A stretch of 53,708 bases of DNA, taken from NCBI GenBank assembly GCA_025356175.1, contig JANXUP010000178.1:1-53708 (forward strand). The letters run 5' to 3'. A model generated the notes under the pieces. That model saw only the letters and a list, made by a program, of their open reading frames with translations, was not told the origin of the DNA and searched no databases. Position numbers and translations under genes: made by a program. Positions 9,895 through 15,383 of the stretch are shown piece after piece (position 1 is the stretch's first letter; each line of letters begins with the position of its first letter). The DNA is from Sphingomonadaceae bacterium (lineage in GTDB: Bacteria > Pseudomonadota > Alphaproteobacteria > Sphingomonadales > Sphingomonadaceae).

Positions 9895-10497
9895 TCAAGC
9901 CCTAGGCGCCACCCGCCGGTAACTCAGCGCTTCGGCCACGTGGATGCGCCCGATCCCCTCGTTGCCTGACATATCCGCAATCGTCCGCGCCACGCGTAGC
10001 ATCCGGGTGTAGCCGCGCGCGGACAGGCGCATCGCTTCGGCGGCTTGCAGCAGGAGCTTGCGGCCCGGTTCGTCCGGTGTGGCGTGGAGTTCGAGCATTT
10101 CACCACTCAGGTCGGCATTGCTGCGCATCTTGGTTCCGGCAAGCCGAGCGGTCTGGATCGCGCGCGCAGCCGCAACCCGCGCGGCGACTTCGGCGCTGCC
10201 TTCGGCGGGGGGAGGCAGGCCGAGATCGGCGGCGCTGACCGGGTCGACATCGACATGGAGGTCGATCCGGTCGAGCAGGGGGCCACTGACCTTCGACTGG
10301 TAATCCGCCGCACAGCGCGGCGCGCGGCTGCAAGCCAGCGCCGGATCGCCAAGATGTCCGCAGCGGCACGGGTTCATCGCCGCGACCAGCTGCACCCGCG
10401 CCGGGAAGGTCACATGCGCATTGGCCCGCGCGACATCGACCACCCCGGTTTCCAGCGGTTGGCGCAGCGAATCGAGCACCGCGCGCTGGAATTCCGG
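9895..10497 (-). pseudogene. comM: comM (yifB) 3' fragment: C-terminal part of Mg-chelatase-like AAA+ ATPase
   Basis: About 200 codons of the C-terminal half of ComM/YifB. They begin at PEFQRAVLDSLRQPLETG and include FPARVQLVAAMNPCRCG (sensor region), SGPLLDRIDLHVDV and the Mg_chelatase_C domain ending AEALSYRRVAPRA. Upstream residues read from the same ORF come from the island. The matching N-terminal fragment lies 4.2 kb away on the same strand. ComM is a hexameric helicase promoting branch migration during natural transformation. The ATP-binding part is missing, so the gene is inactive. Confidence 0.92.
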
Positions 10498-10533
10498 AAT
10501 TAGGTAGCAAGCGCAGAAGCTACCGAGATGCCG

Positions 10534-10553
10534 CACAAAACAGAGGTTTTGTG
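10534..10553 (-). terminator. hairpin at island left end, terminator of the membrane passenger gene
   Basis: CACAAAAC and GTTTTGTG form an 8-bp stem with an AGAG loop, 38 bases past the stop of the leftward membrane-protein gene. Another small inverted repeat (GGTAGC...GCTACC, 10503-10524) lies just outside and may be part of the element's end. Confidence 0.5.
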
Positions 10554-10591
10554 TAATGGAATTCATTTTGAAGCTGGTCGCGGCGCTTGCG

Positions 10592-11530
10592 CTAAGTTGC
10601 GTGGTTCACCCTGCCCGCAACAGTCCAAGTGATTTCCTGAACATTGTCGCCTTTCAAGGGCCGGTCAGTGTGACGGATAATCCCAATCTCCCAAAGGTGG
10701 CTGGTCATATGTTCGTCATCACCGAAAATGTCCTGATACTTGGCATGGCCATAAATGAAGAGACGGCCCGCGCCCGAAAAAATCGAGTCGATTTCCGCCA
10801 AAGTGAGACGGGTCTGTTGGCTCCAGATTTCTTGGCCCGGCCCGACAATAGACCTCACCGAATCGGGAGCAAAGTTGGTCTGTATTTTCTCAAGTTGCAA
10901 AGTGTTTACCCCCCAAAATGGGGTTTCGATAAAGACAAGATTCCGGGTTGGTGTACCGCCAAAGTTTTTCCAAATAATTCGGATTTCGATGAAAGTCGTT
11001 TCGTCTACAACAATGAATTTCCAAGTGATTCCTGTTGGAGAGAACCAGGGGCGCAAAGCCATCGTAGAATTGCGATCATTGCGATCTGCAATCTCATTGG
11101 CCATCAGCATGGCTTCAGTTGCCTTGCCGGTGTCTTCGACGGCCTCGCGAGTAAGGACAATTTGCTTGTAGAGGAAGGCGGTGCCGACCGCAGTTATGAG
11201 GACCGACGCAAACGACGCGACGACCATCCAAAACGCCCAAAGCGCGCTGGCCTCTTGGGCCGCGAGATCGCGTATCTCATGGTCTTGGCCGGTGGCGGGC
11301 TTTGGGTTTGCTATGGCGCGTTCAACCGGGCCGGGAAGGCCCGAAATATCTGGCAGACTTTGGGATGGGCCAGCGTAGTCGCCATTTCCGGCTTGGTCGC
11401 TAGCTACTGCCTGATATTGCTTATGGTCGGGGCTGTATAGCGAACCATAATAGGCCCCGGTCCCGAGCGCGACAAATAGGGCAGTTAATCCCGCAATTGC
11501 AGCGAGGATGCTCCGATAACCTCTAAGCAT
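10592..11530 (-). CDS. hypothetical membrane protein, island passenger
   Basis: A 312-residue protein with two membrane segments: residues about 9-30 (LAAIAGLTALFVALGTGAYYG) and about 98-122 (WAFWMVVASFASVLITAVGTAFLY). These are followed by a TREAVEDTGKATEAM helix and a C-terminal domain beginning RPWFSPTG. This layout recurs in many small hypothetical proteins of sphingomonads and other proteobacteria; function unknown. Its start lies inside the end of the DUF6471 gene (46-bp overlap), consistent with a two-gene operon. Lower GC than the chromosome. The plus-strand ORF over the same bases is a shadow. Confidence 0.65.
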   Translation of the reverse strand: MLRGYRSILAAIAGLTALFVALGTGAYYGSLYSPDHKQYQAVASDQAGNGDYAGPSQSLPDISGLPGPVERAIANPKPATGQDHEIRDLAAQEASALWAFWMVVASFASVLITAVGTAFLYKQIVLTREAVEDTGKATEAMLMANEIADRNDRNSTMALRPWFSPTGITWKFIVVDETTFIEIRIIWKNFGGTPTRNLVFIETPFWGVNTLQLEKIQTNFAPDSVRSIVGPGQEIWSQQTRLTLAEIDSIFSGAGRLFIYGHAKYQDIFGDDEHMTSHLWEIGIIRHTDRPLKGDNVQEITWTVAGRVNHAT

Positions 11531-11724
11531 TGCAGCAAGAACGCAGCCGTGAAGCCGCCCCGGCTGATCTTGTTGTTGAGGTTGCGCTCGTTCTCCGACA
11601 CGCCGATTCCCGCAAGCTTTTCAGCCAGTTCCGCATAGGTGATGCCCCGCCGTTTCAGCTCCGCTTTTAGCAGGTTCTTTGCGCGAGTCTCGAACTCGAC
11701 TGTTGCTGCGTCGGCCTTGGCCAT
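11485..11724 (-). CDS. DUF6471 domain protein (small helix-turn-helix-like)
   Basis: A 79-residue protein matching DUF6471 closely: FETRAKNLLKAELKRRG, then ITYAELAEKL, ERNLNNKISRGGF and FLLQCLEVIG. The fold looks like a Cro/HTH DNA-binding domain, so a regulatory role is likely but unproven. GAGG lies eight bases before the ATG at 11724; a GTG three codons earlier is an alternative. It is divergent from the IS1595-type transposase, with about 100 bases between, and precedes the membrane passenger. The neighbourhood suggests control of the element's own genes. Confidence 0.8.
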   Translation of the reverse strand: MAKADAATVEFETRAKNLLKAELKRRGITYAELAEKLAGIGVSENERNLNNKISRGGFTAAFLLQCLEVIGASSLQLRD

Positions 11725-11825
11725 GGGGGTCACCTCAAAATATCATCAATTCCGATGATATACACCATTGACTTTGCCGATGTAAACCATCATATCTTGT
11801 GCATAACACCACTGGATATGATGAT

Positions 11826-12320
11826 ATGGCACAGCACTTTCTCCTTTCCGCCAAGGCTCGCACGATCAGCCTCAAGGCCGTCTATCAAATGGGCGAGGCC
11901 AAGGCTTACGATCTGTTCCGCTCGCTTCGCTGGCCGGAGACGGAAGGCGAGGCGGTTTGCCCTCGTTGCGGCTGCACCGATGCCTATGACATTCCTACCC
12001 GGCGCAAGTTCCAGTGCCGCGCCTGCGGCCACCAATTCAGCGTTACCAGCGGCACGATCTTTGCCGGTCGCAAGCTGGCTTTCACCGATTTGCTGGCTGC
12101 AATCGTGCTGTTCGTGAACGGCGCGAAGGGTGTTTCTGCGCTGCAAATCAGCCGTGACCTCGATTGCCAATATAAGACCGCTTACGTGCTGTGCCACAAG
12201 CTGCGCGAGGCTATGGCGCTTGAGGACAAGGGCCAGACGCTGGAGGGCGAAGTCGAAGTGGACGGGGCCTATTTCGGTGGCCACATGCGCCCTGCCAATA
12301 ATCGCGAGAACCCGAAGGAC
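11826..12320 (+). pseudogene. IS1595-family transposase, 3'-truncated
   Basis: About 165 codons remain. They start MAQHFLLSAKARTISL, then a zinc ribbon (CPRCGCTDAYD and CRACGHQFSVTSGT) and the beginning of the ISXO2-like DDE domain (VEVDGAYFGGHMRP, first catalytic Asp). Homology stops after NRENPKD. The usual basic stretch and the remaining catalytic residues are absent, and the frame runs into a serine-recombinase fragment. An upstream in-frame ATG (11799) is in the track, but the ATG at 11826 matches the family start. The truncated enzyme cannot be active. Confidence 0.88.
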
Positions 12321-12485
12321 AGCATTTATCGACTCGACCCTCATCGGGCGGCGACGGTACGGGAAATTTTCCGGCTTGCGACCAGCGGCATGGGCAAGCA
12401 CTTAATCGCTTCGACGCTTAACCAGCGGCAAGTAGCGACTTGGGTGCACGGCAACCGCCGGGCAAACGGCTGGCAGCCATCCTAT
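12321..12485 (+). pseudogene. internal fragment of a large serine recombinase
   Basis: About 55 codons in frame with the transposase remnant: DPHRAATVREIFRLATSGMG, HLIASTLNQRQVATWV and GWQPSY. This matches the part of the recombinase domain just after the catalytic core in large serine recombinases. Both flanks are lost: the transposase abuts on the left and the antisense of the resolvase on the right. It is a trapped remnant with no start of its own. Confidence 0.75.
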
Positions 12486-12845
12486 AAAGCCGCGTTCCAA
12501 ATCGGCTACCATAGCCAGTACCGTCACCAGCAAGGACCCGGTAGCATCCCTAGTAGAGAAGGCTGGTTCGAGCACCGTCAGGGTTGCGCCCTTGGATTGA
12601 AGGTCGTGTACGATGTTCAGCACGTCGCGGGTGCTGCGCCCAAGCCGATCCAGCTTGACCACGACCAACTCATCACCCTCGCGAAGGAATTCTAGCAGCA
12701 AGGCCAGTTCTTCACGTCCTTCTCTCGTACCCGCGCTGGCCTTCTCAGCACGCACGATGGTGCAGCCAGCTTCCTTAAGGCGTACCTGTTGAAGCGCGTG
12801 GTCTTGGTCGGCTGACGAAACCCGAGCGTAACCGTATTTGGCCAT
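12402..12845 (-). CDS. Tn3-type serine resolvase, C-terminally truncated
   Basis: The catalytic domain is complete to about residue 121: YARVSSADQDHALQQ with the catalytic Ser, VVVKLDRLGRSTRDV, then TGSLLVTVLAMVADLERGFI. After that the frame reads through the antisense of the recombinase fragment (GWLPAVCPAV), so the helix-turn-helix tail that binds res is missing. Full-length relatives have about 190 residues. The ATG at 12845 begins MAKYGYARV; the longer track start is unlikely. A three-dyad res-like region lies directly upstream. Without the tail, site-specific resolution is improbable unless another copy supplies it. Confidence 0.85.
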   Translation of the reverse strand: MAKYGYARVSSADQDHALQQVRLKEAGCTIVRAEKASAGTREGREELALLLEFLREGDELVVVKLDRLGRSTRDVLNIVHDLQSKGATLTVLEPAFSTRDATGSLLVTVLAMVADLERGFIGWLPAVCPAVAVHPSRYLPLVKRRSD

Positions 12846-12871
12846 GCGTATTGCCTCCCCCGTAACAGATA

Positions 12872-12950
12872 GGTGGACCAGCGCTTTCCACCGTAACATA
12901 TATGGGTATTATACCCTTAAGTTACAAGTAGGCTGTAACATCAACTTGTA
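12872..12950. promoter_or_regulatory. res-like recombination site of the resolvase (three dyads)
   Basis: Three inverted repeats lie side by side upstream of the resolvase start: GGTGGA...TCCACC (12872-12892), GTAAC...GTTAC around GGGTATTATACCC (12893-12925), and TACAAGT...ACTTGTA (12923-12950, 28 bp with a central TA). Three dyads with the 28-bp crossover-type site farthest from the gene recall Tn3 res, though the centre spacing (about 27 bp) is shorter. The dyads may also autoregulate the resolvase promoter. Confidence 0.6.
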
Positions 12951-13106
12951 TCGCAGGGGCACACCGTAAAGGTACTGACCACGACAATCGTGGCGTGTTT
13001 CCTGCTGACAAACTATTCCTTGGATCCGGGTTCACCGACCTGTATTGGGCTGAATTGCCCGGCAGCCATTTCTAGTACGGTGTCGGAACAGGAGGGGGCT
13101 GGCGCC

Positions 13107-13343
13107 ATGCTGCAATTGGTCGGTTTTATCGCAACTCTGATGCTCTTCGTGAAGGGGCTAGAACTCCAAGCTACTGGCCGGACTAAGGAGGCTGCTCATC
13201 GCGCGAATTTTTACGTGGCCGCAGCTATCGCGATACTCGGTGCGGTGCTTTTCTCTTACGCTCTCGTGGTGGCAGGTAACGAGGCAACTGCTAACATGGA
13301 ACGGATCCAGAGCAGCTTCGCTCCCCCCACGAGGCCGTGGTAA
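13107..13343 (+). CDS. hypothetical small membrane protein, island cargo
   Basis: A 78-residue product with two hydrophobic segments, about residues 2-17 (LQLVGFIATLMLFVKG) and 35-55 (VAAAIAILGAVLFSYALVVAG), and a short soluble tail. GGAGGGG lies about ten bases before the ATG at 13107 and decides this start over the longer track ORF, whose extra N-terminus is not family-like. It converges on the 418-residue unknown gene. No family recognised. Confidence 0.55.
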   Translation: MLQLVGFIATLMLFVKGLELQATGRTKEAAHRANFYVAAAIAILGAVLFSYALVVAGNEATANMERIQSSFAPPTRPW

Positions 13344-13370
13344 GACGCGCTATGGAGCACTCTTGTTTCA

Positions 13371-14627
13371 TCAGGTGGGCTGGTCGGCATCAATACCGCC
13401 CGGCAGGAGCGGGAAGCGGGAGTGCAGACTGTAAACCGTACCATCCCGGTCACGCGCACGGTTGGGTGCACGTATGATCACGTCCAGCGACTCCAACTGT
13501 CCTGCCTCATGAGTCGTTATCATTGCAAGCCGCCCTTTACCGACGCGGATATGTCGGAACTGGCAGAGGTGGTTGATGACCTCTTTACGTCGTTCGTAGG
13601 TGGTGATCACGCATGAAACCAAGGCTGCTAGTTCACCGAAACTGCTATTTCCAACCAGCAGATGCTGTCGCCTGTTAGGCCAAGTGGACCTTAGTATGCG
13701 ATTCATCCGACGGGCCGCGTCGTCGGCCAATACGCGCAGTCGTTGCCGGGTGTCACCAGATGCCGAATCGCGGACTGCGCGGGACACATTTTTCAGGTAC
13801 CGGACCTCGGCTCTGATTCGGTCACCACCACGGGAATAGAACACCGCGTTAGTGGTGTCGGTAGCAAGTAGCGGAACGGTTACCGTGCGGTATCCGTCCT
13901 CATCGCCCGCCCTCACGCTGTTAAACTCAGTCTGACTGCCGCCCTGCACACCAGTATAAAAATCAGTGACCTGTAGGACAGGTTCGTCAGCGCAGAAGTC
14001 ACTGTAAATCTCGATCTGCCTGACGCTAACCAAGTTGAACTGCCCGTGACCGTCCCTTTGCGCATGGCCGGGGATTGCGCCGAACAGTGCCAAGCTGACC
14101 AACGCGACAGCCCCGTCTAGAATGCGGGCCGCATCATCAATCCAATGGTATGGCAGTGCACCGGGGTGCAATAATTCGGCGGGGGTGAAGTAGTTGCCTT
14201 GTCGGTTGGCCCGGCTAGTTGCACAGACCGACGGTGCGACGTGTGTTATGGTGATCTGGGACGCATCAATGTCCGGTCGCAATGCCCGAACCCGAGTCGG
14301 ATTTATGAGCACTGTCGCCGTGACTGCCATGCGTGCGGGCTGCGCCGCAGTCGGCTCGCCGAGGAGCAACTGAACTTCCAATAGCCACCCGTGGTGATCC
14401 GACACATCGCGCAAGCGAAGTCGACCGACGCCGTCATTTGCCCACCTGAAACCTCGGGGCAGCCGCCCCTGAAACGGTGTACGACCGCGCACAAGGTCTG
14501 ACATCACGTCAGCCCTTAACCGGTGACCAGCGAAGGCAAATTCACCCCGACACACGAGTTGAACTCGGTCCACCATGAGGTCACCCGCCTCGACCTGTGT
14601 CGTCGTGCGCCAGTCAGGGAACGCCAA
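13371..14627 (-). CDS. unrecognised 418-residue protein, island cargo
   Basis: A TTG start is supported by GGGAGG six bases upstream; an internal ATG (MVDRVQLV) is the alternative. The sequence has normal globular composition, no signal peptide and no clear membrane segment except a weak one near LDGAVALVSLALFGA. Recognisable landmarks are MVDRVQLVCRG, RGFRWANDG, FTPAELLHPG, RIRAEVRYLKN and QFRHIRVGKGR. I cannot assign it to a family. A short run (DRIRAEVRYLKN after a central variable part) faintly recalls replication initiators of small phages or plasmids, but this is a guess. It diverges from the comM N-terminal fragment's end by about 120 bases. Confidence 0.65.
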   Translation of the reverse strand: MAFPDWRTTTQVEAGDLMVDRVQLVCRGEFAFAGHRLRADVMSDLVRGRTPFQGRLPRGFRWANDGVGRLRLRDVSDHHGWLLEVQLLLGEPTAAQPARMAVTATVLINPTRVRALRPDIDASQITITHVAPSVCATSRANRQGNYFTPAELLHPGALPYHWIDDAARILDGAVALVSLALFGAIPGHAQRDGHGQFNLVSVRQIEIYSDFCADEPVLQVTDFYTGVQGGSQTEFNSVRAGDEDGYRTVTVPLLATDTTNAVFYSRGGDRIRAEVRYLKNVSRAVRDSASGDTRQRLRVLADDAARRMNRILRSTWPNRRQHLLVGNSSFGELAALVSCVITTYERRKEVINHLCQFRHIRVGKGRLAMITTHEAGQLESLDVIIRAPNRARDRDGTVYSLHSRFPLLPGGIDADQPT

Positions 14628-14744
14628 CCCAATCCTCCCGCTAATCGTCAGCAGCGATTCACCAAATTTCTGCGAAGGTCTATAGAGAGGGCAAGGCTGC
14701 CCCTATGAAACCCTCACAAATGTTGGTGCAATGGGCTTCAACTT

Positions 14745-15383
14745 GAGCAGGTTGTGTCCGCCCGCTGCGGCAATTTCGAGCGCACGTTTGGCGCTTTCCT
14801 GGCCCTTCACCTGCTTGAGGTCGGGTCCAAAGCCCGGCTCCTGCGCCACGCCCGGTGCCGGTTCGGCAAGCTGCTGCGTGCCCTTGAGATGATTAAGCAA
14901 GCTGACCAGATTGGGCGCGGCGAGGATCGGGATGCCGCTGGCCCAGCGCGCCTCGGTTCCTTGCGCGGCGGGGCAGATCAGGCCTTTGTCCTGCCCGCTG
15001 GCATGGAGCGCGGCGAGCAACACGCCGGGGCTGGCGATGATCCGCCCGTCGAGTGACAGTTCGCCCACCGCGATAAAGTCTTGCAGTTGCTCGGAATCGG
15101 TGACCCCCATCGCGGCGAGCAAGGCCAGTGCGATCGGCAAATCGTAGTGCGAACCTTCCTTGGGCAGATCGGCCGGCGACAAGTTGATCGTGATCCGCTT
15201 GGGCGGCAGCGATAGCCCCATCGCGGCGAGCGCGGAGTGAACCCGTTCCTGGCTTTCCTTGACCGCCTTGTCGGGCAGGCCGACCACGTTGAAGCGCGGC
15301 AGGCCGGGCGCGATCTGGCACTGCACTTCGACGCCGCGCGCCTCCAGCCCCAAATAGGCGACGGTCTGAACCAGCGCGACCAA
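14745..15383 (-). pseudogene. comM: comM (yifB) 5' fragment: N-terminal part
   Basis: About 213 codons. They start VALVQTVAYLGLEARGVEV and contain the ChlI (lon protease-like) N-terminal domain (FNVVGLPDKAVKES, RITINLSPADLPKEG, LDGRIIASPGVL) and the linker to AAA+ (KGQESAKRALEIAAAGGHNLL). The native sequence stops just before the expected GPPGSGKS Walker A motif. The frame then reads KLKPIAPTFVRVS from the island and ends. The only start in frame is TTG. The C-terminal fragment lies 4.2 kb downstream on the same strand. Confidence 0.92.

Follow-up and report, generated by a model that had tools for sequence, protein, structure and literature searches.

The window analysed here is a 53,708-nucleotide stretch of contig JANXUP010000178.1 (assembly GCA_025356175.1) from a member of the Sphingomonadaceae. 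Its comM/yifB gene is split by an island (10498-14745; ~4.25 kb) that stands in place of about 87 codons from the stretch between Walker A and Walker B. The two genes of interest, encoding proteins of 418 and 78 residues, converge in the right part of this island, between the comM/yifB halves, as the initial annotation had placed them. The features are as follows.

9895-10497, minus strand: C-terminal half of comM/yifB (PF01078/PF13335, TIGR00368; alignment to intact comM)
10592-11530, minus strand: 312-aa orphan with apparent transmembrane segments in the left part of the island (27% identity to the protein in the same place on contig C175)
11485-11733, minus strand: DUF6471 HTH-like protein belonging to the IS1595-type island (PF20075, E=1e-31)
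11826-12312, plus strand: 5' part of an IS1595-type transposase (PF12760/NF033547)
12313-14745, no strand assigned: segment with the resolvase remnant, the 78-aa gene and the Rep-like gene (boundaries inferred)
12402-12899, minus strand: small serine recombinase, C-terminally truncated (PF00239, E=1e-29)
13107-13343, plus strand: 78-aa predicted membrane protein (open reading frame with ribosome-binding site; unrelated neighbour)
13371-14627, minus strand: Rep-like 418-aa protein, TTG start (open reading frame with ribosome-binding site, 11 intact homologues, AlphaFold2 model, Foldseek)
14748-15383, minus strand: N-terminal half of comM/yifB (PF13541, TIGR00368; alignment to intact comM)

The island is composite. 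In intact-frame numbering, comM homology ends at residue ~244 and restarts at 332. Window positions 11486-12312 are 93% identical to contig C175 of the same assembly, on which the transposase frame is intact, and this identity ends at 12312. Contig C175 has the same left-part arrangement, with its element in comM at residue ~332, flanked on either side by LPEF as in an apparent target duplication; the left junction is common to the two contigs (140 bp at 98.6%). The segment 12313-14745 has replaced the 3' half of the IS1595-type element along with comM codons ~245-331. At its left edge, a fragment resembling a large serine recombinase (12313-12520, plus strand; PF07508, a weak match at E=0.03) is in frame with the transposase stub. 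Islands in comM/yifB occur in several genomes of the genus (window 9895-15383; G000:C175, L057; G926, L056; G912, L055), and they interrupt the ATPase core at various positions, near residues 244, 270 and 332. A DUF6471 gene divergent from an IS1595-type transposase lies inside comM at window 11485-12312, L056 10221-11525 and L057 1112-2411, and a passenger-carrying IS1595 element may favour comM as its target.

Both open reading frames appear to be real genes, and the ribosome sites attributed to them at first reading are borne out by the coordinates. The 418-codon frame has GGGAGG and then six bases (ATTGGG) ahead of its TTG start, and no in-frame ATG, GTG or TTG lies upstream. In each of 500 dinucleotide-preserving randomised versions of the island, the longest frame stayed below the 443 codons of the full open frame (median 180, maximum 374 codons). 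The smaller gene has AGGAGGGGG upstream, 8 bases before its ATG; an in-frame GTG at 12990 would extend the product to 117 aa. By a host codon score its annotated frame, which is free of stops, is the best of the six. A gap of 27 bases separates the two stop codons. The view that neither protein belongs to a recognised family has also held: searches of Pfam, NCBIfam, PHROGs and PADLOC returned no convincing match and no curated model for either, and the 418-aa protein matched no PDB sequence.

The 418-aa protein is nevertheless not a singleton. Single-sequence searches of plasmids, phages, viral contigs and genome contigs found no relative, but whole-genome searches within the window's bacterial family yielded two distant ones, and alignment-based iteration recovered the relatives at L012-L018, then L031 and L032, then L079 and L080. 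These 11 intact relatives, all from Alphaproteobacteria, are about 14-28% identical; together with the window protein they form a 12-member set in which most pairs are below 30% identity. This family, here called the Rep family, is found in 9 of 401 genomes (~2%) of the window's bacterial family and is sporadic across the class, with 3 of 199 genomes in one other large family. Phage records and viral contigs held no relative by tblastn or contig scans, and the sole plasmid trace by tblastn was a remnant on two related Rhizobium plasmids (in R. ruizarguesonis NZ_CP140842.1 it lies at L020 7791-8450). The genome-contig scan found one broken copy, in Qipengyuania (L061). L061 (7001-8085) and L014 (8114-9852) have one tRNA-Pro element end in common across two genomes, and Rep in L061 is 90% identical and carries an internal deletion. 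A further candidate from that scan, L062, was a false match and is apparently an IS200-like/REP-type transposase.

Despite this divergence, the 12 sequences retain a small set of invariant polar columns: D20, N109, N145, E206, Y264, R270, R272 and E274 are nearly the only such columns present in 12 of 12 members. Position 266 is K in 11 of the 12 and R in the window protein, and position 210 is E or D throughout. The codons of the predicted active site, and the C-terminal region considered below, are located as follows.

14568-14570, minus strand: D20, predicted metal ligand 1 (RepDE D46); 12/12, on the first strand of the model
14010-14012, minus strand: E206, predicted metal ligand 2 (RepDE D142); 12/12, on the first strand of the second lobe
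13836-13838, minus strand: Y264, predicted nucleophile (RepDE Y191), in Y-x-K/R; 12/12
13806-13814, minus strand: R272-x-E274, predicted partner Arg and metal ligand 3 (RepDE R212, E214); 12/12
13419-13646, minus strand: C-terminal winged-helix region, approximately residues 328-403, from the secondary structure of two models

The catalytic set of RepDE/RepSTK1 comprises Y191/Y179, K193, R212, D46/D9, D142/D116 and E214/E196 (PMC4797284), and the MOBT relaxase RelSt3 cannot nick without its equivalents of the Tyr, the Lys and the three carboxylates (PMC6499999). D210, four residues after E206, corresponds to RepDE D146. At the level of sequence, then, the residue set and its order agree with those of Rep_trans-type initiators and MOBT relaxases, and a site of this type is recognisable at the superfamily level: a Tyr with Lys at +2 (Arg in the window protein), Arg-x-Glu, and two earlier carboxylates. 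The 12-member alignment has no conserved His column, and the His-hydrophobic-His motif is absent; the HUH endonucleases (Rep_1, Rep_2, MOB_F/P/Q) are thereby excluded.

For the window protein, AlphaFold2 predicts two b-a-b4-a units followed by a winged helix (pLDDT 69.8, pTM 0.63), and the model of a relative, which scored better (pLDDT 79.4, pTM 0.73), has the same two-lobe topology. In both models, D20, E206, Y264 and E274 fall on separate strands of the lobes, as they do in Rep_trans. The latter adopts the TATA-binding protein (TBP) fold (PMC13107129), and Foldseek ranked RepSTK1 (4CIJ) first for the window model, at E 3.3e-5 and probability 1.00 with low TM-scores of 0.27/0.40, followed by TBPs. 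The relative's better model had no match in the PDB at E<0.001, and RepSTK1 was outside its top 50. A TBP-like two-lobe fold is thus likely from the models, but given this result and the low TM-scores for RepSTK1 it is not settled. The winged-helix region matched a MarR/SlyA profile very weakly (E=0.9).

Profile searches leave the family outside those already named. The window protein and ten members had no Pfam match, at E up to 10, to PF02486 (Rep_trans), PF05144 (Phage_CRI) or PF25227 (DUF7845), nor did replication families in Pfam, PHROGs and NCBIfam match (for Pfam and PHROGs the scan covered ten members, with E values up to 10). Comparison by hhalign with the Phage_CRI and Rep_trans sets gave no signal; it was equally blank between those two sets, and the test thus lacks power. 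With the raw Phage_CRI HMM (PF05144), three members ranked in the top six of 524, a weak signal without significance. In the weak alignments that the Phage_CRI and Rep_trans HMMs make with members, the R-x-E or Y-x-K columns of the HMMs mostly coincide with those of the family.

The genomic surroundings of the relatives place them in integrative elements. In 9 of the 11 relatives the Rep gene has a small serine recombinase no more than 3.5 kb away, and this neighbour is directly upstream in L013, L014, L017 and L031 (gaps of 21-96 bp) and in L079 (64 bp). Host genomes carry 1-6 PF00239 genes each, and the chance of such adjacency can therefore be roughly estimated at about one per cent per locus. 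Of the two remaining relatives, L012 has a tyrosine integrase as its neighbour and L032 an AlpA regulator. The truncated recombinase of the window is 36-45% identical by tblastn to those beside L013-L018 and L031. Most relatives are near a tyrosine integrase or a tRNA, with tRNA genes at the edge of most loci, and four elements, each with an integrase inside, are flanked by tRNA-derived direct repeats:

G046, ~15.8 kb: repeat of 40 bp
G253, ~12.0 kb: repeat of 40 bp
G680, ~9.5 kb: repeat of 20 bp
G241, ~7.9 kb: repeat of 17 bp

These elements integrate at tRNA genes, as seen from the integrase and att-like repeats in these four relatives. The G194 element showed no tRNA repeat, and the repeat at G358 was set aside as probably another tRNA gene. 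Several of the relatives' elements carry restriction-modification genes. Inside the smallest, the serine recombinase and Rep are accompanied by an integrase, a SacI-like endonuclease and a C5 methylase, and the cargo of G253 includes EcoRII-like endonuclease, Vsr, RES-domain and dCTP-deaminase-like genes. At L018 12076-17326, RES, dCTP-deaminase-like, Vsr and EcoRII-like genes are packed into a 12-kb tRNA-Gly element as a compact defence cargo. Among the proteins scanned we recognised no other replication or mobilisation gene in the elements; no phage structural genes were noticed in the Rep loci, and no conserved origin hairpin or common k-mers were found beside the Rep genes. The window copy departs from this pattern, lying in comM and having neither an integrase nor att repeats at a tRNA gene. 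Given its site, the missing integrase and the truncated resolvase, we regard it as a remnant: an intact Rep gene stranded in a composite comM island.

Rep_trans (RepD/RepDE of pT181-type plasmids, RepSTK1 4CIJ) and MOBT (RelSt3) have the same catalytic order and spacing (D, D/E with an acidic residue at +4, Y-x-K/R, R-x-E) and likewise the two-lobe TBP-like fold predicted here, with the Tyr on a strand and the metal ligands on separate strands. The Rep family differs from Rep_trans in that an R at Tyr-2 is not conserved, a winged helix stands in place of the RepDE DNA-binding domain, and its members belong to tRNA-integrated elements of Alphaproteobacteria. Further, the Tyr is 10 residues from the last Glu, versus 23 in RepDE and 17 in RepSTK1, which leaves no helix between them. 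As the PF02486 profile gave no match, we do not file the family there.

The nearest architecture is that of Rep-Arvir (RepSNJ2, DUF7845/PF25227) of archaeal viruses and plasmids, in which a TBP-fold catalytic domain precedes a MarR-like winged helix; its relation to Rep_trans is also not visible in sequence, and it too is found in integrated elements (PMC13107129). The spacing is similar (E25, D207, Y283, E303 versus D20, E206, Y264, E274), whereas the Rep family is bacterial (all the members found are alphaproteobacterial), has Y-x-K and not KHYYM, lacks a DUF7845 match and is linked to a serine recombinase. The gene II-type Phage_CRI proteins of filamentous phages (PF05144) offer another parallel, their ID..., NP after the lobe-1 strand, R-x-D, Y-x-K and R-x-E recalling D20, N109-P, E206, Y264-x-K and R272-x-E274; there was no Pfam or PHROGs match, no profile-profile score and no match in phage records or viral contigs. 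Finally, integrative and mobilizable elements (IMEs) of Firmicutes reportedly combine an integrase with a Rep_trans relaxase, and thus also place an integrase and a TBP-fold tyrosine enzyme in one integrated element. The elements described here differ in being alphaproteobacterial and tRNA-targeting, and in their serine resolvase partner and restriction-modification cargo.

From these observations we conclude that the 418-aa protein is probably a divergent enzyme of the Rep_trans type, a TBP-fold tyrosine initiator or relaxase that serves an integrative element, and we hold with similar confidence that its previously unnamed family comprises divergent enzymes of this kind. Counting against this reading are chiefly the absence of any sequence-profile match and the failure of the relative's better model to recover RepSTK1, and in addition the low TM-scores, the Arg at position 266 of the window protein and the lack of a conserved origin hairpin. 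In the mechanism we propose, two tandem TBP-like lobes would form the catalytic domain and the C-terminal winged helix would recognise DNA. If the enzyme acts as Rep_trans does, D20, E206 and E274 would hold a metal while Y264 attacks one strand at an origin within the mobile element. Y264 would then remain bound covalently to the 5' end, leaving a 3' OH for rolling-circle synthesis, and Rep would rejoin the DNA ends after one round. Members of the family reside in tRNA-inserting elements with a tyrosine integrase, usually a small serine recombinase and often restriction-modification genes. After excision, Rep may copy the circle or serve as a MOBT-like relaxase for mobilisation, and the serine recombinase may resolve multimers. 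We favour replication over mobilisation, two uses that the data do not separate.

The strongest alternative differs solely in the use to which the nick is put. A MOBT-like relaxase would employ the same chemistry to nick the oriT of the excised element and would use a co-resident conjugation apparatus, which would make these elements integrative and mobilizable. Rep_trans relaxases are said to mobilise such elements in streptococci, and the relatives' elements, with an integrase and no other recognised replication or mobilisation gene among the proteins scanned, would suit that use. The catalytic set is also common to MOBT relaxases (PMC6499999). Neither an oriT nor a coupling protein was seen, however, and a C-terminal winged helix has been reported in the replication initiator RepSNJ2 (PMC13107129); we consider a relaxase in place of an initiator rather unlikely.

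It is unlikely that the protein does not nick at all and acts instead as a TBP-like DNA-binding accessory factor, an excisionase or regulator, of the integrase or resolvase. Its linkage to recombinases and its C-terminal winged helix would fit such a role, and some DNA-binding proteins without catalytic activity likewise have TBP-like folds, but the invariant Tyr, three carboxylates, Lys and Arg look like those of an enzyme and not like DNA-facing surface residues. At 420-520 aa, moreover, the proteins far exceed any excisionase known to us.

The 78-aa protein is probably a real small membrane protein and not a partner of Rep. It had no match in plasmids and marginal matches only elsewhere. 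The initial annotation had likened the layout of a soluble and a small membrane protein to both toxin or defence pairs and small replicons, and had proposed looking for conserved adjacency in other genomes; the replicon comparison survives, with an initiator or relaxase as the best reading of the larger protein, and the pair does not. That the two form a toxin or defence pair, as their adjacency and convergent orientation within a mobile region and the restriction-modification genes of the relatives' islands might suggest, is very improbable, as the 78-aa gene is missing at all nine homologous loci tested, the tail-to-tail arrangement is not operon-like, PADLOC gave no match, and the conserved neighbour of the Rep family is the small serine recombinase. 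Any link to defence is thus indirect, by way of the restriction-modification islands in which several relatives travel.

Returning to the initiator or relaxase that we prefer, we lean, with a little more belief than doubt, towards a broader proposal: that an undescribed TBP-fold nicking-joining family, working alongside a serine resolvase dedicated to it, drives the rolling-circle replication or mobilisation of the small, tRNA-integrated elements by which restriction-modification systems spread among Alphaproteobacteria, and that it is a bacterial architectural counterpart of the archaeal Rep-Arvir. In many small alphaproteobacterial defence islands an integrase is present, but no gene for replication or transfer has been recognised. 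If our proposal is correct, a hidden initiator/relaxase family would supply the multiplication or movement function of such islands, and its function could be tested with one Tyr mutant. Annotators could then name a set of proteins now called “hypothetical”, and the TBP-fold initiators would gain a new branch.
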